Shown here one piece after another: positions 993 through 15,132 of a DNA stretch of 35,984 nucleotides (the first letter of the stretch is position 1; each line of letters opens with the position of its first letter). The position numbers were made by a program, and so were the translations under genes. The stretch is from contig JAJFFB010000136.1 of NCBI GenBank assembly GCA_021776925.1, forward strand, positions 1-35,984, written 5' to 3'. A model generated the notes under the pieces. That model saw only the letters and a program-made list of their open reading frames with translations, did not search any database and was not told the origin of the DNA. Source of the DNA: Planctomycetota bacterium. Lineage in GTDB: Bacteria; Planctomycetota; UBA1135.

Positions 993-1631
993 TCAGGCTG
1001 GGTGGTCCTGGAGCAGGACCGCACGCACGGGAGAGGCGTCGGCGTCTTCCAGTTTGAGCGGCAGGGCGATCAGGGTGTAGAGGCCGGGGTCGACGTGATC
1101 GAGGACCAGGCCTTCGAGGATCGCCATGTCGTGGTCGGCGACGGCGTTGTGGCTGGGCAGGACCTGGTCTTCCTGCGGATCGATCGAGGGGGTATCGATG
1201 CCGACCAGGACCACGCCGTGCGCGGCCAGGTGACGGATCAGGTCGGCGGAAAGGGAATTGAAATGGGGGTTCCAGTCCTCGGCGTCGGCGAAGCTGCCGG
1301 TGTGGAAGAGCACCCGCGGCGCACGCAGGGGGCCGTCCAGGTCGTCGATCTCGACGCGCGCGTCGGGCGGCAGGTCGACGCGCACCACCTGGCACGGTCC
1401 GTAGTAGAGCTCGAGACTGCGCGCGGCGATGCCAACGCCGCCGGCGCGGTAGTGAGCCGGTGCGTCGGCGTGCGCGCCGTCGTGCACGGTGGTCAGGATC
1501 GAGGACAGCGCCAGCGGGTCGCCGTCTTCCAGCTTCATCGACACGCGGCGCTCGAAGCCCTGGTCACCGGGCCATACCGCAATGCGCGGCGAGACCAGCG
1601 GGCTGATGTCAATCAGGCGGGAGGCGGGCAT
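993..1631 (-). CDS. kynB: Kynurenine formamidase (arylformamidase), cyclase family
   Basis: Hydrolyses N-formylkynurenine to kynurenine and formate, the second step of tryptophan breakdown, in the cytoplasm. The 212 residues match the usual length of bacterial KynB. The metal site motif VHDGAHADAPAHY (around residues 49-61) is the HxxxHxD pattern of the cyclase superfamily. The early WPGD, the GIDTPSIDPQE stretch and the C-terminal ALPLKLEDADASPVRAVL are typical of KynB itself. The gene lies 27 bases after the aminomuconate deaminase gene and about 6.9 kb from kynA, at the far end of the same run. An ATG overlapping the deaminase stop opens a short frame that terminates inside kynB (around 1609), so there is no exact coupling here. 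Identification is firm. Confidence 0.93.
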   Translation of the reverse strand: MPASRLIDISPLVSPRIAVWPGDQGFERRVSMKLEDGDPLALSSILTTVHDGAHADAPAHYRAGGVGIAARSLELYYGPCQVVRVDLPPDARVEIDDLDGPLRAPRVLFHTGSFADAEDWNPHFNSLSADLIRHLAAHGVVLVGIDTPSIDPQEDQVLPSHNAVADHDMAILEGLVLDHVDPGLYTLIALPLKLEDADASPVRAVLLQDHPA

Positions 1632-1658
1632 GGTGTTGCAAGGGCAGGGGCGCGGCGA

Positions 1659-2075
1659 TCATGCTTGCGCGATGACCTTGAACTCGATCGCAATCGGCGT
1701 CGGCAGGGCGCGGATGGCGAGGGTGGTGCGGGCCGCCTGGATCGATGCAAAGTACTCGGCGTAGACGCGGTTGTAGTCGGCGAAGTCACGATCCATGTCG
1801 ATCAAAAAGGCGGTGACGTCGAGCACCTTGTCGAGCGAGGAACCAGCCGCTTCGAGCACGGTGCGCACGTTCTCCAACGCCGCGCGGGTCTGCGCTTCAA
1901 TGTCGTAGAGCAGAGTATTGCCGTCGGCGTCGCGCACCGGCCCGCCTGGGATCGCGTCGCTGCCGGCCTGGCGCGGCCCGACGCCGGACAGGAACAGCAA
2001 CTCGCCGAACCGGCGGGCGTGGGGATAGGCCCCCACCGGGGCCGGCGCATCGTCGCTGTGGATCGGATCATTCAT
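1659..2075 (-). CDS. 2-aminomuconate deaminase, RidA/YjgF family
   Basis: Likely converts 2-aminomuconate to 4-oxalocrotonate with release of ammonia, as AmnD/NbaF does. The protein has 138 residues. Its N-terminal DDAPAPVGAYPHARR and LLFLSGVGPRQ are the hallmark of the aminomuconate deaminase branch of RidA proteins, and the FAxYNRVYAEYF stretch is typical of the trimeric RidA fold. The start is set at MNDPIHSD because the ATG overlaps the preceding dioxygenase gene by 8 bases; earlier codons in this frame only shadow that gene. Its presence beside the semialdehyde dehydrogenase means the route goes through 2-aminomuconate whatever the upstream chemistry. A general RidA deaminase is the alternative, but the N-terminal signature and context argue against it. 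Confidence 0.9.
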   Translation of the reverse strand: MNDPIHSDDAPAPVGAYPHARRFGELLFLSGVGPRQAGSDAIPGGPVRDADGNTLLYDIEAQTRAALENVRTVLEAAGSSLDKVLDVTAFLIDMDRDFADYNRVYAEYFASIQAARTTLAIRALPTPIAIEFKVIAQA

Positions 2076-2994
2076 GTCTGCCTGGGTCGTTCGGCGCCAG
2101 CACGTTGCGGTCGCCACGGAAGAACTCGGCGCCGTCTTCGTCGTACTCGAGGTCGCCGACGCTGGCCGCGGCGGGTTGCAGACCGACCAGAGCCGCCCCG
2201 GTCCCCCACACCGGCTGGTAGTCGAAAACCGTACCACGGTAGTGATTGTTCTCGCCGAGGGCGGCAGCCATCCACCACAGTGCTTTCATCTTGGAGTCGC
2301 CGTTGGCCTGGTGGCTGAACTCGCGCGCCAGCTGGCTGACGTCTTCCAGACGCCCGTCGCCGAGCAATTCCAGCAGCTTGCGGTTCCACTCGTCGTCCTT
2401 CTGCGAATGGATGCGGTCGTGGGCCGGATCGATCCAACGCGTGAACATGCGGTTGCTCAGCGCGCTGACGCCGAGCACCACCGCCTTGCGCCCGCTGGCT
2501 TCGACCGCGTCGCGCGCCGCCTTGCCCAGCACCAGGGTCTCGGCGCGGTCGGAGTACATGTTGCACGACACCACGCACGCCGGGATGCGGTTGTCCGGGT
2601 TGAGCAGGCGCAGCGCGGTGATGGTGCCGACGTCGATGGGAAAACCGCGATAGGCGACGGTGCGCGCGTGCAGGCCGCGGGCTTGCGCCTTGTCCAGGTA
2701 CTGCGCCGCGAAATCGGCGTCCATGCGCAGCTTGTAGTGCAGGCTGCCGTAGGAATGGAAGTCCTCGTCGACCACCCACCATTCGGGCTGCGGATCGGCC
2801 TGGATCTGGTGGCCGATGATCGACACCCAGCGGGTCGAGAACAGCAGCAGCAGATCGGCCTCGCTGGCTTCGATCTCGGCGCGCACGCGCGCGCAGCTGT
2901 CGCGCAAGGACGCCCAGCCGCGATTGGCATCCGGCGCCAGCAGCGGCAGCGGCTGGTTCGGCACCAGATAACCGGATAGAACCTGGCCGCTCAT
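2068..2994 (-). CDS. amnA: 2-aminophenol 1,6-dioxygenase-type alpha (non-catalytic) subunit
   Basis: Partner subunit of a class III (LigB-type) extradiol dioxygenase. The 308-residue protein resembles AmnA. It begins with a strand plus LVPNQPLPLL, where the catalytic subunit has APHPPHL, so the iron-binding histidine is missing. It keeps GFPIDVGTITALRLL in mid-protein and ends in a degenerate form of the GYGxxxGTGxA element (DYQPVWGTGAALVG), followed by about 35 extra residues. The start MSGQVLSG is preceded by GGAGG four bases upstream. A 13-codon mini-ORF beginning with the same MSGQV lies between amnB and this gene, its stop overlapping this ATG. It probably stabilises the beta subunit in an alpha2beta2 complex. 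The symbol is by analogy. Confidence 0.8.
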   Translation of the reverse strand: MSGQVLSGYLVPNQPLPLLAPDANRGWASLRDSCARVRAEIEASEADLLLLFSTRWVSIIGHQIQADPQPEWWVVDEDFHSYGSLHYKLRMDADFAAQYLDKAQARGLHARTVAYRGFPIDVGTITALRLLNPDNRIPACVVSCNMYSDRAETLVLGKAARDAVEASGRKAVVLGVSALSNRMFTRWIDPAHDRIHSQKDDEWNRKLLELLGDGRLEDVSQLAREFSHQANGDSKMKALWWMAAALGENNHYRGTVFDYQPVWGTGAALVGLQPAAASVGDLEYDEDGAEFFRGDRNVLAPNDPGRHE

Positions 2995-3034
2995 CGCTCC
3001 TCCGCCATAGCTGGGCGAACCTGGCCGCTCATCG
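2979..3034 (-). repeat. 18-bp direct repeat covering the amnA start codon
   Basis: The 18-mer CGATGAGCGGCCAGGTTC (minus strand) occurs at 3034-3017 and 2996-2979 without mismatch, offset 38. The first copy carries the amnB stop and a mini-ORF start, the second the mini-ORF stop and the amnA start. The offset is 2 modulo 3, the phase needed for stop-start overlap at both ends. Confidence 0.9.
2991..3032 (-). other. 13-codon relay mini-ORF between amnB and amnA
   Basis: Reads MSGQVRPAMAEER then TGA. Its ATG overlaps the amnB stop (ATGA) and its TGA overlaps the amnA ATG (ATGA). It contains GGAGGAG, the SD for amnA. A coupling role is inferred; the peptide itself need not matter. Confidence 0.55.
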
Positions 3035-3985
3035 GCTGAGGTCCCATTCGACCACCGCGTTGCCGGTACCGATGACGGTGCCGTAACCGTGCACCTGACC
3101 GGCGACCTCGGGGAAGTCCATCGCCGCGAGCAGCCAGCTGAGGCTGCCATCGCGGGTTTCGGCCACGCACTGATCGGTGAAATCGGGCATCTCGTCGAAG
3201 ACGCGCCGACTCTGCCCGCTCTCCATCAGCGCCAGGATGTGACGATCCCATGCGGCCTGGTTTTCATTGTGGATCGACTCGAAGGCCGGGTCCTCGGGAT
3301 CGGCCGGCTCGGTGGTGTAGTGGCGGTGGCTCAATGAGCACGAGGCCAGACACAAGGCGCTCTTGCCGCTGGCTTCGACCGCCGCGCGGGTAGCGCGGCC
3401 GAGGGCGAGCATTTCCTGGTCCCCGGCCTCGTTGCAGTAGTCGAAGGCGGTGCGCACCGAGGAAATCGCTACCACCGGAAGGTCCCCCGCCGGGCGCACC
3501 AGATGACAGGAGGTCAGGGTGCCGTAGTCGACGCGGAACTCGGGGTTGGTCATCATCTGGCAGCTCAGGCCGGCGTCGCGCGCGTGATCGTGAATCGACT
3601 GGGACAGGGCCACATCGACGTCGAGCTCATATTGGAAGCGGAACAGGTTGGGGAAGATCGGATCGACCGACAAACCGGAAAAGTGCGGAACGCCGAGGAA
3701 GTGGGTGCCGGTTCGAGTTTTCCAGTGCGGCGTGTGCACCACCAACACGTCGTAGACGCGTGCCTCCAGACTGGCGCGCAGGCGTTGGTAGCCGGCCAGC
3801 AGTTCCTGCCACGCGCCCGCCCCGCTGGAGCGCGGTTCGTTCTGCGGCGGATTGCTGGCGTAGACCAGATGCGGCGGATGCGGCGCCAGAATTCCACCGA
3901 CCACCGCACCGGATGGATGCTCCCCGCGCCGCACGGCGGCTTCGGCATCGGTTGCCGCTGGGGGGGAGTGGTCCGCAGAGCTCAC
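3029..3985 (-). CDS. amnB: 2-aminophenol 1,6-dioxygenase-type beta (catalytic) subunit
   Basis: Fe(II) extradiol ring-cleavage subunit of the LigB fold. In Pseudomonas AmnB the substrate is 2-aminophenol and the product 2-aminomuconate 6-semialdehyde. The 318 residues contain ILAPHPPHLVYASNPPQNEP (H36 matches the first iron ligand of AmnB), VVHTPHW with H84/H87, FRVDYGTLT and, near the end, GYGTVIGTGNAVVEWDL, almost as in AmnB. Compared with AmnB there is an N-terminal extension of about 23 residues. The start is GTG, overlapping the dehydrogenase stop as GTGA. Nothing else in the window is a ring-cleavage enzyme for 3-hydroxyanthranilate, so this enzyme should supply the ring fission for the operon. 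A related aminated substrate cannot be excluded. Confidence 0.87.
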   Translation of the reverse strand: MSSADHSPPAATDAEAAVRRGEHPSGAVVGGILAPHPPHLVYASNPPQNEPRSSGAGAWQELLAGYQRLRASLEARVYDVLVVHTPHWKTRTGTHFLGVPHFSGLSVDPIFPNLFRFQYELDVDVALSQSIHDHARDAGLSCQMMTNPEFRVDYGTLTSCHLVRPAGDLPVVAISSVRTAFDYCNEAGDQEMLALGRATRAAVEASGKSALCLASCSLSHRHYTTEPADPEDPAFESIHNENQAAWDRHILALMESGQSRRVFDEMPDFTDQCVAETRDGSLSWLLAAMDFPEVAGQVHGYGTVIGTGNAVVEWDLSR

Positions 3986-5382
3986 AGCTGCACCCACACG
4001 TTGCGATCCTGGGAGAAGAACTCCATCGAATAGCGCCCGCCTTCGCGGCCGACGCCGCTCTGTTTCATGCCGCCGAAGGGCGCGCGCAGATCGCGCGTAT
4101 TCCAATTGTTGATCCACACCATGCCGGCCTCGAGCCGCGCGGCGACGCGGTGCGCGCGGCCAAGGTCGCGGGTCCACAGCGATGCTGAAAGCCCGTAGTC
4201 GACTCCATTGGCCAGCGCCAGCGCCTGTTCGACGTCGCCGTCGGCGAAGGGATGCAGGCTGACCACCGGACCGAAGATCTCTTCCTGCGCGGTGCGGCTG
4301 TCGATCGCCAGGCCGGTGATCACGGTGGGCTGGTAGAAGGCGCCGCCATCCGGCCCACTGCGCTGACCGCCGCACAGAATGGCCCCCCCCTCATCTCGCG
4401 CCAGGGCGACGTAGGACTCGACCTTGTCGCGATGGGCGCAGCTGATCAGGGACCCGCTCTGGTGCCCCGGACGCCAGTCGGCGGTGGCGGCAACCAGCGC
4501 TTCGGCGAGGCGCTCGTGCAGCGACTCTTCGACGATGATGCGCGAACCGCACAGACACACCTGCCCCGCGTTGAAGAAGGCGGCGCGCGCGACACCGGTG
4601 ATCATGGCGTCGAAGTCGCAGTCGGCAAAGACCACGCTCGGGTTCTTGCCACCGAGTTCCAGGCTGACCTTTTTCAAAGCCCCCGCCGCTGCCGCGGCGA
4701 TGTGGCGTCCGGTCGCGGTGCCGCCGGTGAAGCTGACCGCCTTGACCTGCGGATGGCGGATCAGCGCTTCGCCGGCTTCATTGCCGAGGCCGTGCACCAC
4801 GTTGAGCAGGCCGGCGGGAGCGCCGGCCTCGCTGAAGCACTGCGCCAGCAGGGTGGCGCTGGTCGGCGTCATCTCGCTCGGTTTGGCGATCACCGCATTG
4901 CCCATCGCCAGCGCCGGGGCCGCTTTCCAGGTGAACAGGTGTGCGGGAAAATTCCACGGCGTGATCGTGGCCACGGTGCCCAGCGGCTGGCGCAGGGTGT
5001 AGTTGATTCCGTCCTCGGTGCCGTGGCAGGCGGTGGCGTCGGTGCGCACCGCGCTGGCGTAGAAACGCAGATTGGCGATCGCGCGCGGGATGTCCCCGTG
5101 GCGCGCCGCGCTCTCGAGCTTGCCGCTGTCGGCGGCCTCGGCCGCGGCGATCTCATCGATGCGCGCCTCGGCGGCGGCGGCCCAGGCTTCGAGCAGGTCG
5201 GCACGCTCGGCCACCGGCAGCACCGGAGCGGCCTCGGCGGCGGCCACCGCGGCGTCGACGTCGGCGGCGCCGCCGGCAGCGAGCTGACCGAGGAGGTCCC
5301 CGCTCTTGGGGTCGTGGTTATCGAGATAGCCACCCGTGGCGGGTGGATGGGCGCGGCCGCCGATCCAGTGGTCGAGTCTCAT
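3982..5382 (-). CDS. 2-aminomuconate 6-semialdehyde dehydrogenase (ALDH family)
   Basis: NAD-dependent oxidation of 2-aminomuconate semialdehyde to 2-aminomuconate. The 466-residue protein shows the ALDH landmarks in order: ITPWNFP with the catalytic Asn (about residue 150), KPSEMTP for the cofactor, FTGGTATG, LELGGKNP with the general-base Glu, and NAGQVCLCGSR with the nucleophilic Cys. The VCLCGSRI form is characteristic of the aminomuconate/hydroxymuconate semialdehyde branch (AmnC, NbaE, ALDH8A1). The C-terminal PFGGMKQSGVGREGG is also present. ATG at 5382 is preceded by GGAGG seven bases upstream and overlaps the asparaginase stop as ATGA. Its place directly before amnB, whose product it would use, supports the call. 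Confidence 0.88.
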   Translation of the reverse strand: MRLDHWIGGRAHPPATGGYLDNHDPKSGDLLGQLAAGGAADVDAAVAAAEAAPVLPVAERADLLEAWAAAAEARIDEIAAAEAADSGKLESAARHGDIPRAIANLRFYASAVRTDATACHGTEDGINYTLRQPLGTVATITPWNFPAHLFTWKAAPALAMGNAVIAKPSEMTPTSATLLAQCFSEAGAPAGLLNVVHGLGNEAGEALIRHPQVKAVSFTGGTATGRHIAAAAAGALKKVSLELGGKNPSVVFADCDFDAMITGVARAAFFNAGQVCLCGSRIIVEESLHERLAEALVAATADWRPGHQSGSLISCAHRDKVESYVALARDEGGAILCGGQRSGPDGGAFYQPTVITGLAIDSRTAQEEIFGPVVSLHPFADGDVEQALALANGVDYGLSASLWTRDLGRAHRVAARLEAGMVWINNWNTRDLRAPFGGMKQSGVGREGGRYSMEFFSQDRNVWVQL

Positions 5383-6503
5383 CGGTAGTCCTCCCAGTCG
5401 TAGAGGTAGCGTTCGCGGTCCGGATCCCATTCGTCCCAGGTCGGAATGGACCCAAGGCGCTCACCGAGCTCCGGCGGCACCACCCCGGGAACCAGGAAGG
5501 CTTTTTGCCGCTCGAGCGGATAGGGATTGCGCAATTCGATGCCGAGCACGCCGAGTACACCGCGCGCCAGATACCAGGTCGCCTGTGCGTTCCAGCCGTG
5601 GGCGATCTTGATCACCACGCCGAGGCCGTCGGGGTAGTCGGAATGTTCGATCGCCAGTCCGAGCAGGCCGTCGGCGCCTTCCTTGGCCAGCACGCGGCCG
5701 CCGCTGGTTTTGAGGATGGTCGAATCGAGGCGGTTGAAGCCGCCCACCAGATCCGGGTGGCGCTGCATCGCTTCCCAGATCCAGTCCTCGTCGCGCTGCT
5801 GCACCAGGCCGGCGTAGAGCAGCGCCAGCTCGCCGACGGTGTTGGCCATCGTCGGCAGGCCGCAGCCATCGCGCGCCAGGCGCAGCGGCCGCCAGTCGGC
5901 GCCGAGGAAACGGCGCACCTGTTCGAGATAGGCCTGGAAGAAGGGATGATGCGGCAGCATGTAGCCCGCCTGTTCCCAGCCGCGCGCCTTGCAGCCGGCG
6001 AGCAGCGCGGCGTGCTCCCCGGAGCAGGTATGGAACCAACGCCGCGGACGCCGTACCTGGCGACCGAACTGGATCAGCGGAACCGCCAGCGGGGTTTGCA
6101 TGAAACCGTGTTCTTCCGGCGGCAGGATCGACTGCGCCGCGGCGAGGTGCTGGGCGTCGCCGTTGTGGCTGGCTACTGATATGGCCTTCTGGCGCCAGTC
6201 GAAGGCCTGGTCAAGCACCTCGGTGAAGACCTTCATCATCAGCGGCTTCATCATGCTGCGGCCATAACACAGCACGTTGCCGCCGAAGGAATGGACCACG
6301 CGACCGGCTTCGCCGCCCTGGTCGAGCGAACCGCCGCGGCCGCCGACCGCCCACGCCACCGCGCCGTGGATGGTGGTCTCGCTAACCCCCGCGCGGCGGT
6401 AATCGACCAGTGGTTCCCATTCGACGTCACGCCCGGTGGCGATGCCGGGCTCTGCCACGCCGAGCGGGCTGGCGGGATAAAGCGACTCGCGCGGCGAAGT
6501 CAC
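5379..6503 (-). CDS. Asparaginase II-family hydrolase, atypical active site
   Basis: A 374-residue member of the asparaginase II family (Rhizobium etli type, PF06089). Family landmarks: RSMMK (S83, K86), ASHNGDAQH, TCSGEHAALLAGCKARGW and RDGCGLPTMANTVGELALLY (D212, C214). In the family as I know it the third motif is CSGKH, whose Lys is a metal or active-site residue in the ReAV structure; here it is Glu (E163). The start GTG has GGAGAG eight bases upstream and overlaps the stop of a 12-codon mini-ORF; an earlier start inside the LLM gene is possible. Lying between a flavin monooxygenase and a 2-aminophenol dioxygenase, it probably hydrolyses a beta-aspartyl ester or anilide to aspartate and 2-aminophenol. 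That substrate is inference; plain asparaginase activity is the alternative. Confidence 0.82.
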   Translation of the reverse strand: MTSPRESLYPASPLGVAEPGIATGRDVEWEPLVDYRRAGVSETTIHGAVAWAVGGRGGSLDQGGEAGRVVHSFGGNVLCYGRSMMKPLMMKVFTEVLDQAFDWRQKAISVASHNGDAQHLAAAQSILPPEEHGFMQTPLAVPLIQFGRQVRRPRRWFHTCSGEHAALLAGCKARGWEQAGYMLPHHPFFQAYLEQVRRFLGADWRPLRLARDGCGLPTMANTVGELALLYAGLVQQRDEDWIWEAMQRHPDLVGGFNRLDSTILKTSGGRVLAKEGADGLLGLAIEHSDYPDGLGVVIKIAHGWNAQATWYLARGVLGVLGIELRNPYPLERQKAFLVPGVVPPELGERLGSIPTWDEWDPDRERYLYDWEDYR

Positions 6504-6550
6504 GAAGCGCTCTCCGTAGTGCAGCGCGGCGCGGTCATGAAGCGATCTCC
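6489..6550 (-). repeat. 27-bp imperfect tandem duplication at the LLM/asparaginase junction
   Basis: Minus-strand copies at 6550-6524 and 6515-6489, offset 35, agree at 23 of 27 positions (GGAGA.CGCTTC.TGAC..CGCCGCGC). Each has its own SD-like GGAGA and start codon: ATG in the first, GTG in the second. The first also carries the LLM stop. Offset is 2 modulo 3. Confidence 0.85.
6500..6538 (-). other. 12-codon relay mini-ORF between LLM and asparaginase genes
   Basis: Reads MTAPRCTTESAS then TGA. ATG overlaps the LLM stop (ATGA); TGA overlaps the GTG of the hydrolase (GTGA). It fills the 31-base gap exactly. Confidence 0.5.
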
Positions 6551-7776
6551 ATATCGAAACGCGGTGCGACGCGCTCCATGAAGGCACTCATGTTGCGGAT
6601 AACCCGCGCGCTGTCGTGGTTGAAGAAATCGAACCACAACATCAGCCGGTCCGCGGGATGGAAGCGTTCGGCGATTTGCGCCGCGACCTCCTCGGCGTTG
6701 CCGACCAGCGCATTGTCGGCGGCGGCGAGCACCTTGTTGGGATCGATGGTGCCTTCCAGCGCCTTCCAGTACTCGGACAGCGCCGCGCGTGCCTCTTGGC
6801 GCGCCGCGTCGCTGCGCTGTGACGGGCTCAGTCCCTCTTCCTCATTGAGGAAGACGAAGGAGGTGCGCGGCATGAAATGCCGTTGCCAGCCACCTCCGTC
6901 CGGGTGGTAGCGCGCGCGCATCCGCTGATGGGTCTCTTCAATCACCTCGGGGCGGGTGATCGAAAGGTTGAAGACCTGGACCGGCAGGATCTGGTTCAGT
7001 TCGTCCTGCAGTGCGGGGTCGTGCGAGCCGACCACCAGTTGCAGCAGATCGCGGCGCCATTCCTGGGGCACGATCTTGAGGTGCTCGAAGTCGTAACGCC
7101 GCTCGATCGGAAGGACGGCGGGCGCTTCCCTCCCGTGTTGCTGACCATAGGCCTGGCATATCTTGAGCCAGCTTTCCTCCTCGCGGAAATCGGCGCGCTG
7201 CAACACCGTTTGCGGGCCATCGGCGCCGCACAGGGTTTCGCCCTTGAGCAGGCGCAGGAACAGGTGCGCGGCCTCGCGGAAGACCTTGCCCTTGAGCACC
7301 GGCCAGGCGGCTTCCTCGACCGCGTCGCGGGCGTCGAGGCCATAGGCGCGGTTCATGAAATCGAAACGCCCGCCGGCAAAACCGACGTGGATGCGGCGTT
7401 TTTCAGCGGCGTCGGCACCGTGCAGCGCACAGAAAGCAGCGATGCGCTCGGCGGCGGCCACCGGGCCACCGTTGCACAAAACGTTCATCACCGCGGAGCC
7501 GCACTCGATCCGCTGCGTGCGGCGGAACACCTGATGGGCGAGCTGCAGGAAGTCGACATTGAGTCCGACTTCGCCTTGCCAGTGCTGGACCACCGGACGC
7601 CGGTTGCGTTTCTGCACCTCGGTCGACAGGTGCGCCTCGGCCACCCACGCGGTGCCGTAGCCGAGCGCGTCGGCGGCCACCACCTGGTCAAAGAAATTGC
7701 GCAGCATCTGCGCTTCGCTCGGCAGCTCCCCCGCCACCGGAGTGTGGCTGATCGAGAAGAAGACGTCGAAATGCAT
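6535..7776 (-). CDS. Luciferase-like (LLM class) flavin-dependent monooxygenase
   Basis: A 413-residue bacterial-luciferase-family oxygenase that would use reduced FMN and O2. The N-terminal strand MHFDVFFSISHTP, the AADALGYGTAWVAEAHLS stretch (typical GFDSVWVAEHH position) and the later HVGFAGGRFDF are standard for the fold. The C-terminal ALVGNAEEVAAQIAERFHPADRLMLWFDF is the usual LLM end. Members include alkane sulfonate and nitrilotriacetate monooxygenases and type II Baeyer-Villiger monooxygenases. Sequence alone does not give the substrate. In this operon it replaces the FAD-dependent kynurenine 3-monooxygenase one would expect. A Baeyer-Villiger attack on the kynurenine ketone best explains the asparaginase-like and aminophenol genes that follow. 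No dedicated flavin reductase is recognised; the neighbouring SDR is a weak candidate. Confidence 0.85.
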   Translation of the reverse strand: MHFDVFFSISHTPVAGELPSEAQMLRNFFDQVVAADALGYGTAWVAEAHLSTEVQKRNRRPVVQHWQGEVGLNVDFLQLAHQVFRRTQRIECGSAVMNVLCNGGPVAAAERIAAFCALHGADAAEKRRIHVGFAGGRFDFMNRAYGLDARDAVEEAAWPVLKGKVFREAAHLFLRLLKGETLCGADGPQTVLQRADFREEESWLKICQAYGQQHGREAPAVLPIERRYDFEHLKIVPQEWRRDLLQLVVGSHDPALQDELNQILPVQVFNLSITRPEVIEETHQRMRARYHPDGGGWQRHFMPRTSFVFLNEEEGLSPSQRSDAARQEARAALSEYWKALEGTIDPNKVLAAADNALVGNAEEVAAQIAERFHPADRLMLWFDFFNHDSARVIRNMSAFMERVAPRFDMEIAS

Positions 7777-7784
7777 GGTCGTGA

Positions 7785-8576
7785 TCAGATGCCGTTAAGA
7801 CGCCCGCCGTCGACAGCGATGCTCTGCCCACGCAGATAGGCCGCATCTGGGGAGGCCAGAAATGCCACCAAGGCGGCGACCTCTTCGGGCCGGCCGAGCC
7901 GCTGTGCCGGCACGGTGGACAGCCACTCCTGCTCGATCTGATCCGGCCGCACCGAGCGCATTTCGGCCATCTGTTCCTTCAGGGACGCCAACCTGTCGGT
8001 GGCGGTGAACCCCGGCAGGACGTTGTTGATGGTGACCTCGGGAGGAAGCTCCTTGGACAGAGTCTTCGACCACGCTGCCATCGCCGCGCGGATGGTGTTG
8101 GAAACACCGAGGCCTGCGATCGGCTCTTTTACCGAGGTCGAAATGACGTTGATGATGCGGCCATACCCCGACTGGCGCATGCCGGGAAGCAGGCTGCGCA
8201 CCAGCAGGTGCGCGGACAGAACGTGCAGATGAAAGGCGCGGGTGAACTCTTCTTCGGCGGCATCCAGGATCGGGCCGCTGCGCGGGCCACCGGTGTTGTG
8301 GATCAGCACCTGCACCGCACCGACGTCGACCAGCAGCCGATCGACCGCAGCCTGCACCGACTGATGCAGCGACAGATCGCACTTGAGCGACCGCGCCACC
8401 GGCGCACCGGCTTGCTTCAGTGCCGGGACCAGTTCGTCGAGCTTGTCGCCGGAGCGCGCCAAGGCGGTCACCGTGGCGCCACGTGCGGCCAAGGCCAGAG
8501 CACTGGCGCGGCCGATGCCGGAACTGGCTCCACACACCAAGGCGTGGAGTCCTTCGAGGGATGAGGGGGATGCCAT
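7785..8576 (-). CDS. Atypical short-chain dehydrogenase/reductase lacking Tyr and Lys
   Basis: A 263-residue Rossmann-fold protein. The nucleotide-binding motif CGASSGIG (residues 15-22), CDL at 66-68, HNTGG (93-97, in place of NNAG) and the C-terminal LRGQSIAVDGG are clear SDR features. S146/S148 are near the catalytic Ser position. At the YxxxK position, however, the sequence reads GVSNTIRAAM: Tyr is replaced by S159 and Lys by R163. I recall a small SDR subgroup with SNTxRA at this place, so this is probably a lineage trait rather than decay. Its step is unknown; binding NAD(P)H for flavin reduction or acting on a pathway intermediate are guesses. ATG at 8576 follows kynA by 7 bases and has no SD. 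Confidence 0.82.
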   Translation of the reverse strand: MASPSSLEGLHALVCGASSGIGRASALALAARGATVTALARSGDKLDELVPALKQAGAPVARSLKCDLSLHQSVQAAVDRLLVDVGAVQVLIHNTGGPRSGPILDAAEEEFTRAFHLHVLSAHLLVRSLLPGMRQSGYGRIINVISTSVKEPIAGLGVSNTIRAAMAAWSKTLSKELPPEVTINNVLPGFTATDRLASLKEQMAEMRSVRPDQIEQEWLSTVPAQRLGRPEEVAALVAFLASPDAAYLRGQSIAVDGGRLNGI

Positions 8577-8583
8577 GAAAGGG

Positions 8584-9420
8584 CTAAGAGAAAAAGGAAT
8601 TGCGCACTTCCCACAGCTCGGGGAAGAAACGGTGATGGACACGTTGCTCAAGGAAGGCCTTGCCGGAGCTGCCGCCGGTGCCGATCTGTCCGCCGATCGT
8701 GCGCGAGACCATCAGGATGTGCACCGCGCGCCACTTGCTCACCAGCATGTCGAAATCGAGCAGCGCTTCGCACACCAGGATCCAGTGGTAGTTGTCGTCA
8801 GGCTCCTGGTAGAGCTGGTGCAGCACTTCAACCAGGCCCGGGTCGAGTTCGTGGGTGTGTCCGTCCTCGCCCTCGAGCAGGTGCGCTGGAACCGGGTAGC
8901 CGGCGGCGGCAATCGCGCGCAGGAACTCGTCGTAGACGCTCGGCGCCTGCCAGCGCGCGCGCAGCCGCTCGACGCCGAAGACGTCGTCTTCGAAGAACTG
9001 CAGGAAGAATTCCTCGCGCAGGCCGAAGGCGAATTCCATCTCGCGGAACTGCACCGACTGGAAACCGCTGCCGGTGCCGAGGCGCTCGCGGAAGCCGGCG
9101 AATTCGGCCGGCGTCAGGGTATGCAGCAGCTGGATCTGGTCGCACAGGCAGGACATGATCGCGTTGATGCGCTTGACCACCTTGAGCACCCGCGAGACCG
9201 AACCGGAGCGGAAGTAGCGCACCATCAGATCGGTTTCGTGCAGCATCTCCTTGAACCACAGCTCGAAGCTCTGGTGGATGATGATGAAGAACATCTCATC
9301 GTGGTGCGGCGGCTCGCTCTGCTGCTCCTGCAGCTGGAGCAATTGCGGCACCTGCAGGTAGGAGTTGTAGTTCAGCTCCTCCAGGGGAATGCGCCGGTAC
9401 TCGGTGGTGCGTTCCGTCAC
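8584..9420 (-). CDS. kynA: Tryptophan 2,3-dioxygenase
   Basis: Heme enzyme opening the indole ring of L-tryptophan to N-formylkynurenine, the entry step of the operon. The 278-residue length is normal. Conserved blocks: NYNSYLQVPQLL, HHDEMFFIIIHQSFELWFKEMLHE with the distal His, GSGFQSVQFREMEFAFG, and WRAVHILMVSRTIGGQIGTGGSSG with the proximal heme His and the GTGGSSG substrate loop. Translation starts at GTG 9420. A TATCCT hexamer 7 bases upstream of the start suggests a leaderless or nearly leaderless transcript. The gene is divergent from the EVE gene with only 23 bases between starts. As the first gene of the run, its promoter should drive the pathway; no regulator gene or operator palindrome is visible nearby. 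Confidence 0.95.
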   Translation of the reverse strand: MTERTTEYRRIPLEELNYNSYLQVPQLLQLQEQQSEPPHHDEMFFIIIHQSFELWFKEMLHETDLMVRYFRSGSVSRVLKVVKRINAIMSCLCDQIQLLHTLTPAEFAGFRERLGTGSGFQSVQFREMEFAFGLREEFFLQFFEDDVFGVERLRARWQAPSVYDEFLRAIAAAGYPVPAHLLEGEDGHTHELDPGLVEVLHQLYQEPDDNYHWILVCEALLDFDMLVSKWRAVHILMVSRTIGGQIGTGGSSGKAFLEQRVHHRFFPELWEVRNSFFS

Positions 9421-9443: not shown

Positions 9444-9851
9444 ATGGCCTACTGGCTGGTCAAGGAAGAGCCCGGCAAATACCCCTTTTCCCGCTTCCAG
9501 CAGGAGCGCGAAACGGCCTGGACCGGGGTGCGCAATTATCAGGCCCGCAACCATCTGCGCGCCATGCAAGCCGGCGATGAGGTGGTCTACTACCACACCG
9601 GCGGCGAGCGCCAGGCGGTCGGCCTGGCAACCGTGAGCGCGGCCGCCTACGCCGACCCCACCGCCCGCGAGGGCGACTGGTCGTGCGTCGACCTCACGGC
9701 CGGCAAGGAGCTGCCGCAGCCGGTACCGCTGAAGACCCTCAAGCAAGAGGCGTCGATGGCAAAGTGCCTGCTGGTGCGCAATTCCCGCCTCTCGGTCGTA
9801 CCTTTGTCCACCGCCGAATACCGGCTGATTCTCAAGCTCGCCCAGGCCTGA
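9444..9851 (+). CDS. EVE domain-containing protein
   Basis: A 135-residue PUA-like fold protein (EVE, PF01878) thought to bind modified bases in nucleic acids. The opening MAYWLVKEEPGKYPFSRFQ, then TAWTGVRNYQARNHLRAMQAGDEVVYYHTGGERQAVGLATV, and the terminal LSVVPLSTAEYRLIL are the standard EVE pattern, covering the whole chain. There is no SD; a -10 box six bases from the ATG suggests leaderless expression. It is followed after 3 bases by an rRNA methyltransferase gene, so the pair may share a transcript and a theme of RNA-base modification. The precise ligand is unknown. Confidence 0.92.
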   Translation: MAYWLVKEEPGKYPFSRFQQERETAWTGVRNYQARNHLRAMQAGDEVVYYHTGGERQAVGLATVSAAAYADPTAREGDWSCVDLTAGKELPQPVPLKTLKQEASMAKCLLVRNSRLSVVPLSTAEYRLILKLAQA

Positions 9852-9854
9852 ACG

Positions 9855-11039
9855 GTGCCCCTGTCCGCCCCCCCCAGCGCCGACGCGTGGGCCGTACTCG
9901 ACGGCCGCCCGCGCGGCCCGCGCATCTTCCGCAAAGACGTGCGCGTCGCCGGCAAGGACGCCGTCGCCGGTGGCCTGGTCGCGGTGCGCGGCCCGGAAAA
10001 CGAGCACTTCGGCTGGGCGCTGTGGCATCCGCGCTCACAGATCGCGCTGCGCTTTGTCAATCGCGCCGAACAGGCGCCGAGCGCAGAAGACCTGCGGGCA
10101 CTGGCGGTGGCGGCAGCCCAACGCCGCCTCGACGACCCCGAGATCCCCGACCAGGTGTGTCGCATCCTGCACGCCGAGGGCGACGGCTTCCCCGGGCTGG
10201 TGGTCGACCGTTACGGCCCCTTGCTGGTGGCCAAGGTCTACAGCCTGGGCTCCCTGCATTTGTTCGAACTGGTCCTGCCGGCGCTGCATGATTGCCTCGG
10301 TACCAGCGAGCACATGCTCGATTTCGACGAGTCCTCGGCGCGCGCCGAAAGCGAGAAACCGGTGGTCAAGCGCTCCAAGGGATTCCCTCAGCGCGTCAAG
10401 ATCGAGGAATCAGGGCTGCGCTATGAACTCGACTTCCTCGAGGGCCACAAGACCGGATTCTTCTGTGACCAGCGCGAGAACCGCGCGCGGGTGCGCGCCA
10501 TGGCGCACGGCAAACAGGTGCTCGACGTGTGCTGTTACACCGGTGGATTCGCCCTGTCCGCCGCCGCCGGCGAAGCCGAGGAAGTGCTGGCCCTCGACCT
10601 CGACGAAAAGGCCATCGCCCAGGCCAAGCGCAACGCCAACCTCAACGGCCCCGGCCTGGCGCGGCGCATCAAGTTCGTCCACGCCGACGCCTTCAGTTAT
10701 CTGCGCACCCTCGGCCACAACCGGCGCCGTTTCGATCTGATCGTGCTCGATCCGCCCAAGTTCATTCCCAACCGGCGTACCTGGGAAGAAGGCATCGCGC
10801 GCTATCACGACCTCAACAAGCTGGCGATCCCGCTGCTGGCGCAGGGGGGCACTCTGCTCAGCTGTTCGTGTTCAGGCCTGCTGCGCCCGATTGAATTCCA
10901 GGAGACCGTGCGCCGCTCGGCGCGCAACCGCCCGTTGGCGATCGTGCGCCAGACCGGTGCCGGCGCCGATCATCCGGTGCGCCTGGACTTCCCTGAAGGC
11001 CGTTATCTGAAGGCCTTGTGGATGACCGCAGCGGACTGA
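9855..11039 (+). CDS. Class I SAM-dependent rRNA (cytosine-C5) methyltransferase, RlmI-like
   Basis: A 394-residue protein with the architecture of RlmI: an N-terminal PUA-like domain (about residues 10-75), a linker with HAEGDGFPGLVVDRYG, and a C-terminal Rossmann methyltransferase. Visible motifs: GHKTGFFCDQRENR, VLDVCCYTGGFALSAA (SAM loop), EEVLALDLDEKAI (acidic ribose-binding end), DLIVLDPPKF (motif IV) and LLSCSCSG (motif VI with the candidate catalytic Cys). RlmI makes m5C1962 in 23S rRNA; the exact target here is inferred. The start GTG lies three bases after the EVE stop. It begins VPLSAPPSA, with a run of eight C residues near codon 5 (9868-9875). Confidence 0.87.
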   Translation: MPLSAPPSADAWAVLDGRPRGPRIFRKDVRVAGKDAVAGGLVAVRGPENEHFGWALWHPRSQIALRFVNRAEQAPSAEDLRALAVAAAQRRLDDPEIPDQVCRILHAEGDGFPGLVVDRYGPLLVAKVYSLGSLHLFELVLPALHDCLGTSEHMLDFDESSARAESEKPVVKRSKGFPQRVKIEESGLRYELDFLEGHKTGFFCDQRENRARVRAMAHGKQVLDVCCYTGGFALSAAAGEAEEVLALDLDEKAIAQAKRNANLNGPGLARRIKFVHADAFSYLRTLGHNRRRFDLIVLDPPKFIPNRRTWEEGIARYHDLNKLAIPLLAQGGTLLSCSCSGLLRPIEFQETVRRSARNRPLAIVRQTGAGADHPVRLDFPEGRYLKALWMTAAD

Positions 11040-11102: not shown

Positions 11103-12707
11103 TTACAGACCTGGATCGTGGATCCAGCCTTGCAGTTCCGCCGGCGGGCGTGGGCCGTCGCCGCTTGCCGGGGGCTGAACCCGGCGCAGCACCAGCACCT
11201 CGTCGTGACCGTCGCCGTCGATGTCGCGCACGTGCAGGGCGTGAGGTGAGTCCCAATCGGGACCGAGCCGCGTTTCCCAGTCGGGAATGCGGTCGTGCCC
11301 GGCGGTAATCAGGGCCGAAGTGCGGCCGAGCACCCACTCGGTCAGAGTGGTGACGTCGACCTTCAGGTCCTTGCGGTCGGCAAAGGCGCGGCGCAGGAAT
11401 TCGGCGCTGGCGTTGCCGATCAAAGCATCGCTCGGCACCGCACCCAGCCACACCCCGAGGCGTCCGTCGCCCTCGAGCATGGCCAGATCGTCGCGCTTGC
11501 CGTCGCCATTGAAGTCGCCGACCCGCACCACCGCCTCGCGCATCTGCGACAGCTGCTCCTGGTTTTCATCGATCACCTTGAGCAGGCGCCCGCCTTCGAC
11601 CACGACCTTCTTCTGCTTGTACATGCGCGGATGGAAACTGCCGTCGCCCTTGCCGCGGAAGGCGTAGAAGTCGAAACGCAACCGGAAGGAGGTAATCAGG
11701 GAGAACGCCAGTTCAGCCAGGCCGAGATCTTGGACGCCGATCAGCACCAGGTCAGGAATGCCGTCGTCGTCGATCTGGGCGACCTTGGCGTAGAAAATGT
11801 TGCCGTCGAGCTTGACCGGTCTTTTCTTGTTGTCGAGGCTGACGCCCTGATCGCCGCCGAGAAAGATGCGCACCTTGCCGTTGGAAAGCACCAGCAGGTC
11901 CTGGATGCCATCACCGTTGAGGTCGGCCCACTCGTCGACGACGATGTACTTGAGCAGCTTGGTCAGGTTGGTCAGATCGAGGCTCTTTTCGCTGAAGTCC
12001 TGGCGGAAATCGTCGAGTTCGATCTCGACCGAAGCCTGTTCCGGAAAGCCACTCGCCCCGGCGACGTACTGGCTCACGCTGGTGTCGTGACGCACCAAAA
12101 GGTCGGGCCGGCCATCGCCGCTGATGTCTTCGGTATCGGGCTCCGGCACCGAGAGCGCGCGCTCATAGTGCTCAAGCAAGCCTTCGCCGCGCTCGCCGGT
12201 GGCCAGCGACAGGCGTGCCAGGCCCTCGACCTCGGGGCCGACGTGGAAACCGTCGGCGCTGCCGTGCCAGATGCGCACCGCTCCGGCACGCGGCAGGACC
12301 AGGTCGGGCCAGCCGTTGCCATCGAGATCGCGCACGAAGGCGGCGGTGTGCAAACCCATCGGCGGAGTGGCGTCGAGGCCGGTCAAGATCGCCGGGGCGA
12401 GTTCCAGCTCGCCTTCGCTCAGACGCACCGGGCGCAATTCCTTGCCGTCGACCAGGACCAGGAATTGTTCCACCCCGCTGCGGCCAAGATCGGCGACGGT
12501 CCACAGCGTTGCCCGCCCGGGCAGTTCCAACGGCGCGACCTCGGCGCCATGAAGCAGATGAGCCTTGCCGCCGCGCACCGCGACCATTTCCAGCGCACCA
12601 TCGCCGTCCAGATCGACCACCGCAATGTGGTCCGGCACGCTGCGGATGCGCACCGGTTCGGAGGCAGCCTGCAGGAGGGCGCAGCCTAGTAGCGCGGCGA
12701 TCATCAT
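11103..12707 (-). CDS. Secreted FG-GAP/VCBS-repeat protein
   Basis: A 534-residue protein with an N-terminal signal (MMIAALLGCALLQAASE). Repeats of the integrin-like type, each with a Ca-binding D.DGDG or DLNGDG loop, recur along the chain: VVDLDGDGALEMV, RDLDGNGWPDLVL, EDISGDGRPDLLV, ADLNGDGIQDLLVL, AQIDDDGIPDLVLI, GDFNGDGKRDDLAM and RDIDGDGHDEVLVL. They should form a beta-propeller in the periplasm or at the surface. The start ATGATG overlaps the stop of the neighbouring FG-GAP gene. With that gene, a PDZ lipoprotein and an ABC exporter-like pair it forms a five-gene run. Its role is not known. The gene-free gap to the convergent methyltransferase gene (11040-11102) holds only a weak 6-bp stem (11077-11098). 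Confidence 0.85.
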   Translation of the reverse strand: MMIAALLGCALLQAASEPVRIRSVPDHIAVVDLDGDGALEMVAVRGGKAHLLHGAEVAPLELPGRATLWTVADLGRSGVEQFLVLVDGKELRPVRLSEGELELAPAILTGLDATPPMGLHTAAFVRDLDGNGWPDLVLPRAGAVRIWHGSADGFHVGPEVEGLARLSLATGERGEGLLEHYERALSVPEPDTEDISGDGRPDLLVRHDTSVSQYVAGASGFPEQASVEIELDDFRQDFSEKSLDLTNLTKLLKYIVVDEWADLNGDGIQDLLVLSNGKVRIFLGGDQGVSLDNKKRPVKLDGNIFYAKVAQIDDDGIPDLVLIGVQDLGLAELAFSLITSFRLRFDFYAFRGKGDGSFHPRMYKQKKVVVEGGRLLKVIDENQEQLSQMREAVVRVGDFNGDGKRDDLAMLEGDGRLGVWLGAVPSDALIGNASAEFLRRAFADRKDLKVDVTTLTEWVLGRTSALITAGHDRIPDWETRLGPDWDSPHALHVRDIDGDGHDEVLVLRRVQPPASGDGPRPPAELQGWIHDPGL

Positions 12708-14212
12708 GGGCGACTCAGATAGATCTCCCAGTGGGAGTATTCGCGGACCAGCAGATCGCCGAGACCGTCGTGGTTCAGGTCGCGCACCTCGACCACGGCG
12801 GCGAGGGCATCGACCGGGATGGTGCGTACCGCGGGCCGGACTGCCAGGCGGCCGCCGCGGTAAAGCGGACGCACTTCGAGGTCACCGTTGCCGCTGTTCT
12901 CGAGCAGGTCCGGCAAGCCGTCGCCGTCGAAATCGGCCACCAGCGAGGGCACCACCGAGAAGGAATCGACGTCGCCGACCGCGTAGGAGCGCTCGTGGCT
13001 GAGCGCCGCCCGCGTGTCGAAGCCACTCTCGGTACCGCGGAAGACCTGCATGCTGTGACGGATGCGCGGATCGCGCAAGGTCAGACCGAGGTCGAGTTCC
13101 CACGCCGAGATGGCGATGTCGGTGAGACCGTCACCGTCCACGTCGCGCAGATAGGGACCCGCCCATCCCCCTTCGGCCTTGCGGAAGAAAGCCGGCTGAC
13201 CAAGCTGCGGCTGGTCGAGGACATCGAACCACAAACGCACCTGCCAGTCCGAACTGAGCCCCAGCCCGGAGTCGCTGCGCACCAGCAGCAAATCAGCAGA
13301 GGCGCCACCGCCGACGTGGCGCCAGTCGAGGATTTCAGTATTGGAACCTTTCCCGGGAGGCATCGGGATTTTGCGGTCGGGAGTGGCGCGGAAACTGGAG
13401 TCCTCTTTCTGCAGATAGATGCGGATCTGGCCGTCGCTGAGGAAACTCACGTCACCGCGGCCGTCGCCGTCGAGATCGTCGAGGACCAGGCGCGGCAGGG
13501 TGACCCGCGAGTAGAGCAAGGGCGGTTGTTCGATCACACCCACGCTCTCGTTGGGCACGAACAGCTCGCTCAACTGAGAACTGGACAAGGTCGCGCGCGC
13601 GCGGCCGCCAAACAGATCGCGCTGGGCAACAGGAGCACGCCCGTGCACCGGACGCCACAGGATTTCGCCCATCAGGCTGCCGTCTCCGTGCAGGATGCGG
13701 TAGCCCTCGCGCGTGGGCAGCGCGATTTCATCGAGTCCGTCTCCGTCGAGGTCGGCGACTTCCTTCCACGCCGGCAGATCATCCGCAGCAGGAAGATCGA
13801 GCAGCAACGGCACATCATGGATGCGCCGCGGCCGCCCCCCCCCAGATTGCAGGTACACCGCCTCGCGGGTGGTCAGGAGCAGCTCGGCGCCGGGAGATTC
13901 CTCGCTGCGGTCGAACTCGCCCACCGCCCAGGCCACCACCGCACGCGGCACCGGGTAGACGCGATCGGGCTCGGCCGCGTAACCGCCGCTGCGGCGCTGC
14001 AGGAAAAGCGCGACCAGGCGACGGCCATCGCGCACTCCAGCAAGCCAGATGTCGTCGAGCCCGTCGCCATCGGCGTCGGCGAACACGGTATCGACGATGG
14101 TTTCGGGAATGTCAACCAGGTAGCGACCGTAGCCGCCCTGTCGGTCCGCAGCAGCGGCGCTGGTGACCAGCGTCACCCCCATCAGCAGGGCAAGAGCAGG
14201 TTTTTGCATCAT
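12704..14212 (-). CDS. Secreted FG-GAP/VCBS-repeat protein
   Basis: A 502-residue paralogue-like neighbour of the preceding protein. Signal peptide MMQKPALALLMGVTLVTSAAAA with a likely AAA cleavage site. FG-GAP loops: ADADGDGLDDIWL, ADLDGDGLDEIAL, DDLDGDGRGDVSFL, RDVDGDGLTDIAI, ADFDGDGLPDLLE and RDLNHDGLGDLLV, suggesting a six- or seven-bladed propeller. ATG overlaps the stop of the PDZ gene (ATGA) and its own stop overlaps the next FG-GAP gene (ATGA), so the two are co-translated and perhaps stoichiometric. A run of nine C residues lies at 13835-13843 (plus strand). A longer frame extends upstream into the PDZ gene but lacks a signal peptide, so the internal start is preferred. Confidence 0.85.
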   Translation of the reverse strand: MMQKPALALLMGVTLVTSAAAADRQGGYGRYLVDIPETIVDTVFADADGDGLDDIWLAGVRDGRRLVALFLQRRSGGYAAEPDRVYPVPRAVVAWAVGEFDRSEESPGAELLLTTREAVYLQSGGGRPRRIHDVPLLLDLPAADDLPAWKEVADLDGDGLDEIALPTREGYRILHGDGSLMGEILWRPVHGRAPVAQRDLFGGRARATLSSSQLSELFVPNESVGVIEQPPLLYSRVTLPRLVLDDLDGDGRGDVSFLSDGQIRIYLQKEDSSFRATPDRKIPMPPGKGSNTEILDWRHVGGGASADLLLVRSDSGLGLSSDWQVRLWFDVLDQPQLGQPAFFRKAEGGWAGPYLRDVDGDGLTDIAISAWELDLGLTLRDPRIRHSMQVFRGTESGFDTRAALSHERSYAVGDVDSFSVVPSLVADFDGDGLPDLLENSGNGDLEVRPLYRGGRLAVRPAVRTIPVDALAAVVEVRDLNHDGLGDLLVREYSHWEIYLSRP

Positions 14213-15132
14213 TGTTCCCCATCGAAGGTCTGCAGTTCGGGACGGCCGGTTTCCCAGTGGAACAGGCTGAAAATGGACCAGTGCTTGACCGCACCGATGC
14301 GCTGGATCTTGAACAGGCTGAAAAAGATGAGGTCTCCGAGTTCGAAGGTCTCGCGGTTCTCTACGCGGTCGATGTCCCACCAGAACACCGGCCACAAGCC
14401 GAGGGTGTTCATGACCATCGGCGGGCTCCAGGTGCGCACTTCGATCTGGCGCGGTTCAGCGCCGTCGCGCTCTACCTGCAGGCGCACCACCTCGCCGGGT
14501 TGGAAGTTCTGCCGCAGGCGCCGCACGAAGTCGCTGGCCGATCCTGGATCGCGGCCTTCGAGGGCCACGATGCGGTCGCCGACTCGTACGCGGTGCTGAT
14601 GCAAGGGACTGTCTTCAGCCAGATGACTGACCACCGGGAAGGCGCCCTGGCCTTCCGAATCCATGAATGCAACACGCAGGAAGGAGCGGTCAACCGCGTA
14701 GAGCTTGCGCAGGCGGCTGCCGCCCTGTTGACCAACTTCGATGGTGGCCGACATGACCTGGTCGCCGCGTTGCACTTCGGCTTCGACAGTGGCGTTCAGT
14801 TGGATCGCTCGCAACAAGGCGGCCAAGCGGTCGGGGTCATCGGTCGGCGTGCCAGCGAAGCGCAGCAGCACGTCGCCGACGCGCAACCCGGCAACGGCTG
14901 CCGGTCCGCCCTCGACCAAGGAGGTCACGCGGACCCCGGGCAGATAGTCGAGCGACTCCAGGCTGGTGCCGCCGTTCGACTCGACCTCGACGCCGATCCA
15001 GCCCGATGCTGCGGTATCTTCGACCTGGGTGGCCTCGAGCGCGTAGAAACCCTTGGGCAACGGCAGCGGCTGGCGGTGCATGGAACACGCGCCGGTTGCG
15101 AGTACGAGTGACAGGAGAAGGAGGCGGATCAT
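14209..15132 (-). CDS. PDZ-domain lipoprotein
   Basis: A 307-residue lipoprotein: MIRLLLLSLVLATGACSMHRQ carries a lipobox with the Cys at residue 16. Two PDZ-like modules follow. The first contains GWIGVEVES, LPGVRVTSLVEGGPAAVAGLRVGDVLLRFAGTP; the second contains SHLAEDSPLHQHRVRVGDRIVALEGRDPGSASDFV. Both have the GDxI/L carboxylate-loop region of bacterial PDZ domains as in DegP or RseP, but there is no protease domain. The C-terminal part (IFFSLFKIQRIGAVKHWSIFSLF) is somewhat hydrophobic. It starts one base from the permease stop (TGATG). It may be a scaffold at the inner or outer membrane for the ABC system or for the two FG-GAP proteins. Function not known. Confidence 0.8.
   Translation of the reverse strand: MIRLLLLSLVLATGACSMHRQPLPLPKGFYALEATQVEDTAASGWIGVEVESNGGTSLESLDYLPGVRVTSLVEGGPAAVAGLRVGDVLLRFAGTPTDDPDRLAALLRAIQLNATVEAEVQRGDQVMSATIEVGQQGGSRLRKLYAVDRSFLRVAFMDSEGQGAFPVVSHLAEDSPLHQHRVRVGDRIVALEGRDPGSASDFVRRLRQNFQPGEVVRLQVERDGAEPRQIEVRTWSPPMVMNTLGLWPVFWWDIDRVENRETFELGDLIFFSLFKIQRIGAVKHWSIFSLFHWETGRPELQTFDGEQ

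Follow-up and report, generated by a model that had tools for sequence, protein, structure and literature searches.

Contig JAJFFB010000136.1 of a Planctomycetota bacterium (assembly GCA_021776925.1) carries a run of nine genes, all on the minus strand between about positions 993 and 9420, whose families suggest that tryptophan degradation is joined here to the breakdown of 2-aminophenol. Positions are those of the window, i.e., the whole stretch of 35,984 nucleotides that was analyzed. Adjacent genes overlap or are separated by short gaps and, read from 9420 to 993, follow the order kynA, SDR, LLM, asparaginase-like (Asn2), aldehyde dehydrogenase (ALDH), amnB-like, amnA-like, RidA, and kynB:

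8584..9420, minus strand: kynA, tryptophan 2,3-dioxygenase, about 278 amino acids, GTG start (PF03301, 183.9 bits; cut-off 34.9)
7785..8576, minus strand: atypical SDR, putative flavin reductase or other accessory protein (PF13561/PF00106; GASSGIG kept)
6535..7776, minus strand: LLM (luciferase-like) flavin monooxygenase, 413 amino acids, predicted kynurenine Baeyer-Villiger monooxygenase (Bac_luciferase)
5379..6503, minus strand: Asn2, Asparaginase-II-family (class 3) hydrolase, 374 amino acids, predicted to release L-aspartate
3982..5382, minus strand: 2-aminomuconate 6-semialdehyde dehydrogenase (best solved structure 4u3w_A, 424 bits)
3029..3904, minus strand: amnB-like, catalytic beta subunit of 2-aminophenol 1,6-dioxygenase (8ihg_A, 328 bits)
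2068..2994, minus strand: amnA-like, alpha subunit of 2-aminophenol 1,6-dioxygenase (7txy_A, 199 bits; PF02900)
1659..2075, minus strand: RidA-fold 2-aminomuconate deaminase (6izh_A, 90.1 bits; next best 81.7)
993..1631, minus strand: kynB, kynurenine formamidase (4cog_A, 173 bits)

Gene families of the nine-gene run

A preliminary description of this DNA, made from its letters, had placed these genes in one minus-strand run, and profile searches bear it out: all nine were found, and their proteins exceeded the Pfam gathering cut-offs (from kynB to kynA: Cyclase, Ribonuc_L-PSP, LigB, LigB, Aldedh, Asparaginase_II, Bac_luciferase, SDR, and Trp_dioxygenase), with E-values of 1.1e-46 for Asparaginase_II, 2.9e-10 for Bac_luciferase, and 7e-54 for Trp_dioxygenase. 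The NCBIfam scores of KynB (TIGR03035, 209.1 bits) and KynA (TIGR03036, 260.2 bits) lie under the respective equivalog cut-offs of 223.05 and 390.7. For the asparaginase-like gene, the start of the long open reading frame originally given lies too far upstream; the gene itself spans roughly 6503 to 5379. The dehydrogenase ATG shares bases with the stop codon of the gene before it. For the amnB-like gene, the start codon could be the GTG near 3904 or one located more upstream.

The run falls into two halves, an upper one of KynA and KynB and a lower one corresponding to a 2-aminophenol meta-cleavage module. Among solved structures, the LigB-fold pair best matches the beta and the alpha subunit, respectively, of 2-aminophenol-type 1,6-dioxygenases (the alpha subunit is non-catalytic in known enzymes of this type), and by family assignment the pair, AmnBA, would act as a 2-aminophenol 1,6-dioxygenase. 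Only SDR, LLM, and Asn2 are left in the run to bridge kynurenine and 2-aminophenol.

Conservation and genomic company of the LLM gene

When genome contigs were scanned with an alignment of LLM proteins (A1), 291 relatives came up, and the best 80 of these define the LLM loci discussed here. Their titles include Planctomycetota, Myxococcota, Deltaproteobacteria, Acidobacteria, Latescibacterota, Silvanigrellales, Proteobacteria, and Thermoplasmata, as well as marine Euryarchaeota (Poseidoniales, Thalassarchaeaceae); two titles, Klebsiella (L034) and Acidimicrobiaceae (L053), look misplaced. Many of the loci run into contig borders, and among all 80, SDR was present in 73 (45–79% identity), Asn2 in 67, ALDH in 62, AmnB and AmnA in 27 each, KynA in 25, RidA in 23, and KynB in 22. 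Of 78 loci in which this could be tested, 66 have the SDR gene immediately upstream of LLM; for Asn2 immediately downstream, the figure is 60 of 71. Chance clustering was considered and rejected, given the conservation of this arrangement over phyla and the co-occurrence in the 294-genome sample described below. On plasmids, KynA relatives occurred in 125 records, every one at <60% identity; Asn2 relatives occurred in 79 records, and since all were <60% identical and none covered 80% of the query, no member of the Asn2 clade is among them.

We surveyed 50 LLM-carrying genomes, comprising the window genome (G000) and 49 genomes from the 80 loci that were picked by hand for spread; 14 control genomes accompanied the searches for KynA, kynureninase, and 3-hydroxyanthranilate dioxygenase (3-HAO). 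Tryptophan dioxygenase was found in 47 of the 50 (missing from G036, G043, and G044) versus 2 of the 14 controls. AmnB, clearly distinct from the alpha subunit, was likewise found in 47 (49 to 100% identity; missing from G041, G043, and G045), and Asn2 in 49 (missing from G020), compared to none of 16 contrast genomes chosen among those ranking highest for kynureninase. Where an LLM locus lacked AmnB and Asn2, they could be found elsewhere in the genome (e.g., L042, L043, L046, L058, and L070).

Kynureninase (TIGR01814) exceeded its cut-off in 0/50 LLM genomes and 2/14 controls, with weaker matches (E ≤ 0.001) in 8/50, the best of them in G020 (235.5 bits; cut-off 246.4). No 3-HAO match exceeded the cut-off in the 50 genomes (weak matches in three), a search that had no positive control because the 14 controls held none. 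Kynurenine monooxygenase (KMO) was found at E ≤ 1e-10 in none of the 50. Enlarging this set by eight genomes from the phylum sample (six LLM genomes of that sample besides G000 share coordinates with loci genomes and were not recounted) left 56 of 58 without a match; G150 had two and G093 a weak one (6.7e-13), with the proviso that in large genomes the best candidates only (up to 22) were scored and a weak extra copy could be missed. At E ≤ 1e-60, KMO was found in 1/58 LLM genomes (G150) versus 15/16 contrast genomes. The earlier statement that kmo, kynU, and haao were not seen in the window extends to the rest of this 4.59-Mb, 87% complete assembly: a kynureninase, KMO, or 3-HAO hidden elsewhere in it was searched for and none was found, while 2-amino-3-carboxymuconate semialdehyde (ACMS) decarboxylase was not searched for.

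A second sample of 294 genomes was drawn evenly from the phylum and was not selected by an LLM bait. It contained LLM in 15 genomes, KynA in 136, AmnB in 12, and the Asn2 clade in 12, where the LLM and Asn2 searches scored the best six candidates per large genome and could miss a weak extra copy. Kynureninase-like genes were present in 115 genomes at E ≤ 1e-20 and in 32 over the NCBIfam cut-off, some of the sub-cut-off genes lying within a few kilobases of KynA on the same contig (e.g., G050, G054, G065, G130, G134, and G210). The AmnB and Asn2 sets were identical (12/12), all of these genomes were LLM- and KynA-positive, and none had a kynureninase-like gene at E ≤ 1e-20. The Asn2 clade is sharply delimited, with scores of 708–760 bits in 11 genomes and two contig-end fragments (500 and 159 bits) in G114, versus at most 110 bits for matches outside the clade. 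AmnB occurred in 12/15 LLM-positive and 0/279 LLM-negative genomes, yielding Fisher P values of 6.6e-19 for LLM–AmnB and 1.4e-21 for Asn2–AmnB, although P values in this sample ignore relatedness and the 12 AmnB/Asn2 genomes fall in six families. The association of LLM, hydrolase, and AmnB first noticed in the window thus recurs in other genomes as a near-perfect co-occurrence across phyla.

Exceptions were few. G150 has a complete kynureninase route: one contig bears the genes for KynA, kynureninase, and KMO, and a different one its LLM, which is divergent (44% identity) and next to a KMO-like gene. The latter two form an apparent two-gene unit (L110:4957-7580) in which the second KMO-like gene is 35% identical to PfKMO. 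G189 and G232 have LLM and KynA, and in them kynureninase, Asn2, and AmnB were not found. Their LLMs (L111:398-1627 and L112:6786-8009; 58–60% identical) represent an unexplained variant without the other eight genes nearby, the G189 gene beginning 398 bases from the contig end.

Since KynA, AmnB, and Asn2 co-occur with LLM while a kynureninase is rarely detected beside them, a conserved, kynureninase-free connection leading from kynurenine into the 2-aminophenol pathway is well supported.

A proposed Baeyer-Villiger route and its alternatives

The three bridging proteins suggest how this connection may work. The LLM model has the luciferase-like TIM-barrel fold common to luciferases and type II Baeyer-Villiger monooxygenases (14% identity to 3,6-diketocamphane monooxygenase in a structural alignment), and the protein is predicted to be an FMN-dependent two-component enzyme. 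Asn2 fits the fold and profile of class 3 asparaginases (PF06089), and its solved relatives are asparaginases. Ser48-Lys51, Ser80-Lys263, Cys135, Asp187, and Cys189 of that class, retained residues whose mutation abolished activity there, have equivalents in Asn2; across 60 sequences S83, K86, S112, C160, D212, and C214 are invariant and K274 is at least 90% conserved. The zinc ligand Lys138 of class 3 enzymes is replaced by Glu163, invariant in the same 60 sequences, and invariant stretches peculiar to Asn2 (e.g., QFGRQVRR) may form an aryl pocket.

The preliminary description had given the SDR no step, a view we revise: in 73 of the 80 loci it is a conserved member beside LLM or KynA and so should have a role. 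It keeps the Gly-rich nucleotide-binding motif, and the YxxxK pair has become S-N-x-x-R in the window protein and nearly all 73 orthologs (L030 has G-N, L057 an X at Arg), YxxxK occurring in none. The closest solved structure, 5va8, is named merely as an SDR. Because flavin reduction by hydride transfer is independent of the YxxxK pair and Pfam finds no classical flavin reductase among the nine genes, the simplest guess is a reductase role, and we tentatively suggest that the SDR is an NAD(P)H:FMN reductase for LLM. Inspection by eye of seven loci in which no SDR adjoins LLM revealed no consistent substitute reductase upstream of LLM (in L045 an SDR of the classical type lies there).

In the proposed route, KynA would open the indole ring and KynB take off the formyl group, both by family assignment. 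LLM, with FMNH2 (possibly supplied by the SDR) and O2, would then place an oxygen atom between the ketone of kynurenine and its 2-aminophenyl ring to yield the 2-aminophenyl beta-ester of aspartate, which an O-to-N acyl shift could turn into N4-(2-hydroxyphenyl)asparagine. The Ser-Lys machinery of Asn2, of the class 3 type, would form a beta-aspartyl-enzyme, expel 2-aminophenol, and release L-aspartate. AmnBA would cleave the ring, and the dehydrogenase and deaminase, again judged by family, would take the product towards 4-oxalocrotonate.

This Baeyer-Villiger and aspartyl-hydrolase scheme is the best single mechanism, with a probability of roughly 0.6; the remainder is divided among unforeseen schemes and ring-hydroxylation variants that arrive at identical end products. 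As first put forward in the preliminary description, its pathway logic passes the genomic tests suggested there and the LLM fold and hydrolase residues fit, while the Baeyer-Villiger step itself is still one that we infer. The chances are about even for the broader proposal of a third, kynureninase-free tryptophan route in Planctomycetota, Myxococcota, Acidobacteria, and Marine Group II archaea, comprising an LLM Baeyer-Villiger enzyme, a repurposed asparaginase, and an SDR turned flavin reductase.

Several observations weigh against parts of this case. Among KynA-positive genomes of the phylum sample, a kynureninase-like gene occurred in 1/15 LLM-positive versus 107/121 LLM-negative genomes (P = 1.3e-10), a contrast in which every match at E ≤ 1e-20 counts, the majority of these falling short of the NCBIfam cut-off; at the strict cut-off, the corresponding 1/15 versus 26/121 is not significant (P = 0.30). 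Loci L024, L046, and L052 keep the SDR with KynA and have LLM kilobases off, which speaks against a reductase role for the SDR. Finally, an alignment of 28 AmnB beta subunits (27 from the loci plus that of the window) shows a conserved Arg between two His, where 8ihg (a solved 2-aminophenol enzyme) and 3vsg (a solved 2-amino-5-chlorophenol enzyme) have Trp and 7txy has Leu. This Arg is the main point in favor of a rival in which the substrate cleaved bears a carboxylate.

That rival takes LLM as a kynurenine 3-hydroxylase replacing KMO, and AmnBA as cleaving 3-hydroxykynurenine, itself a 2-aminophenol whose carboxylate the Arg could hold. Asn2 would act on the ring-opened product through retro-Claisen hydrolysis of a beta-imino ketone, giving aspartate and 2-aminomuconate semialdehyde and replacing kynureninase and ACMS decarboxylase together. 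The gene set, end products, and beta-aspartyl-enzyme intermediate are all the same as in the Baeyer-Villiger scheme, so the co-occurrence evidence fits both equally. We nevertheless consider 3-hydroxylation unlikely: 90 of the 103 AmnB positions that are at least 90% conserved are identical in both 8ihg and 3vsg, and LLM enzymes more often perform Baeyer-Villiger, C–S, or C–N chemistry than aromatic hydroxylation. Moreover, the LLM relative of G150 adjoins a KMO-like gene and there is unlikely merely to repeat the reaction of KMO.

Very improbable is a variant in which LLM hydroxylates C3 of kynurenine and Asn2 hydrolyzes the aryl–carbonyl C–C bond of 3-hydroxykynurenine before ring cleavage, releasing 2-aminophenol and aspartate. 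It uses the same genes and yields the expected AmnBA substrate, but an asparaginase-type site would have to expel an aryl carbanion-like leaving group from a ring activated by the ortho amino group only, and we know of no precedent for such hydrolysis in the asparaginase family. Least probable is that Asn2 is an ordinary L-asparaginase and LLM serves another purpose, with an unrecognized kynureninase and decarboxylation of 3-hydroxyanthranilate supplying 2-aminophenol: the solved relatives of Asn2 and the sub-cut-off TIGR01814 matches (strongest in G020) favor it, but Asn2 forms a separate clade (complete copies well above all other matches) with Glu for Lys138 throughout and a one-to-one match to AmnB in the 294 genomes, and among the 50 LLM genomes no kynureninase exceeded the cut-off and no KMO was found at E ≤ 1e-10 to make the 3-hydroxy compound.

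Known pathways, archaeal variant, and neighboring genes

In the textbook kynurenine pathway, kynureninase is the standard enzyme for cutting kynurenine in catabolism. The exit of its 3-hydroxyanthranilate branch, by way of 2-aminomuconate semialdehyde dehydrogenase and 2-aminomuconate deaminase, is shared with the nine-gene run. The KynA and KynB entry is also alike. The difference lies between these ends: the 50 LLM genomes lack over-threshold kynureninase, 3-HAO, and KMO, and the predicted products of the run are aspartate where the textbook pathway gives alanine, and 2-aminophenol where it gives (hydroxy)anthranilate. The type II Baeyer-Villiger monooxygenases (3,6- and 2,5-diketocamphane) share with LLM the luciferase-like fold and the predicted FMN two-component character; unlike them, LLM has a proposed substrate that is an aryl ketone amino acid, its identity to the 3,6-enzyme is low, and a classical flavin reductase gene is not among the nine. 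In 4-hydroxyacetophenone degradation, an FAD-dependent type I Baeyer-Villiger enzyme and an esterase convert an aryl ketone to an aryl ester and then a phenol. The proposed two-step logic is similar, though with LLM and an asparaginase-family hydrolase in these roles. Asn2 differs from the class 3 L-asparaginases of Rhizobium etli (ReAV and ReAIV) in its Glu for the zinc ligand, its own invariant stretches, and its genomic partners.

The amn pathway (Pseudomonas AP-3, B. xenovorans LB400, and the ARO microcompartment of Actinobacteria) has homologous AmnBA, semialdehyde dehydrogenase, and deaminase, and it is the nine-gene run that joins this set to an upper pathway for tryptophan. The words tryptophan and kynurenine do not occur in the main texts of PMC3790839 and PMC10470539. 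The ARO microcompartment paper expects a natural source of 2-aminophenol upstream, which could not be identified for its own locus (PMC10470539); the run would offer an upstream source of the kind expected there. Among the papers listed in searches of an open-access library, outside which most subscription papers and bioRxiv lie, we found no description of kynurenine cleavage to 2-aminophenol and no link of the LLM or Asn2 clades to kynurenine. If the proposed route is correct, 2-aminophenol, hitherto encountered chiefly as a pollutant intermediate, would also have a natural biological origin. Our comparative evidence suggests that in several marine and soil lineages, among them archaea, KynA operates with two other proteins that take the place of kynureninase. 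It also points to a likely function for two clades with generic names, one called ‘asparaginase’ and the other ‘LLM class oxidoreductase’ or luciferase; of the 120 proteins listed highest in the respective searches, all are at least 69% identical in the former case and at least 64% in the latter.

The archaeal loci show a variant entry. Just upstream of the SDR, 25 loci (24 with archaeal titles, L048:8445-9182 among them, and L053) have a gene belonging to a single family. The L048 representative, the one tested, has a formyltransferase fold (PF00551). N-x-H-P and D-N-G-x-D-T-G elements are common to all 25 genes, and a search for KynB relatives in these loci found none. Judging from sequence, this gene may be a candidate N-formylkynurenine deformylase of a different fold. 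Separately, a FabH-like (KASIII) gene carrying the motifs NAVCAG and IPHQAN comes directly after ALDH in 23 loci out of the 80 (e.g., L062:13881-14879), each of which has an archaeal title.

Beside kynA in the window, at 9444-11039, lie genes for a plus-strand EVE-domain protein and a PUA/SAM-methyltransferase protein, with relatives in 6/80 and 10/80 loci, respectively. Two adjoining minus-strand FG-GAP-repeat genes follow at 11103-14395, and relatives of these lie near LLM in 9/80 and 8/80 loci.

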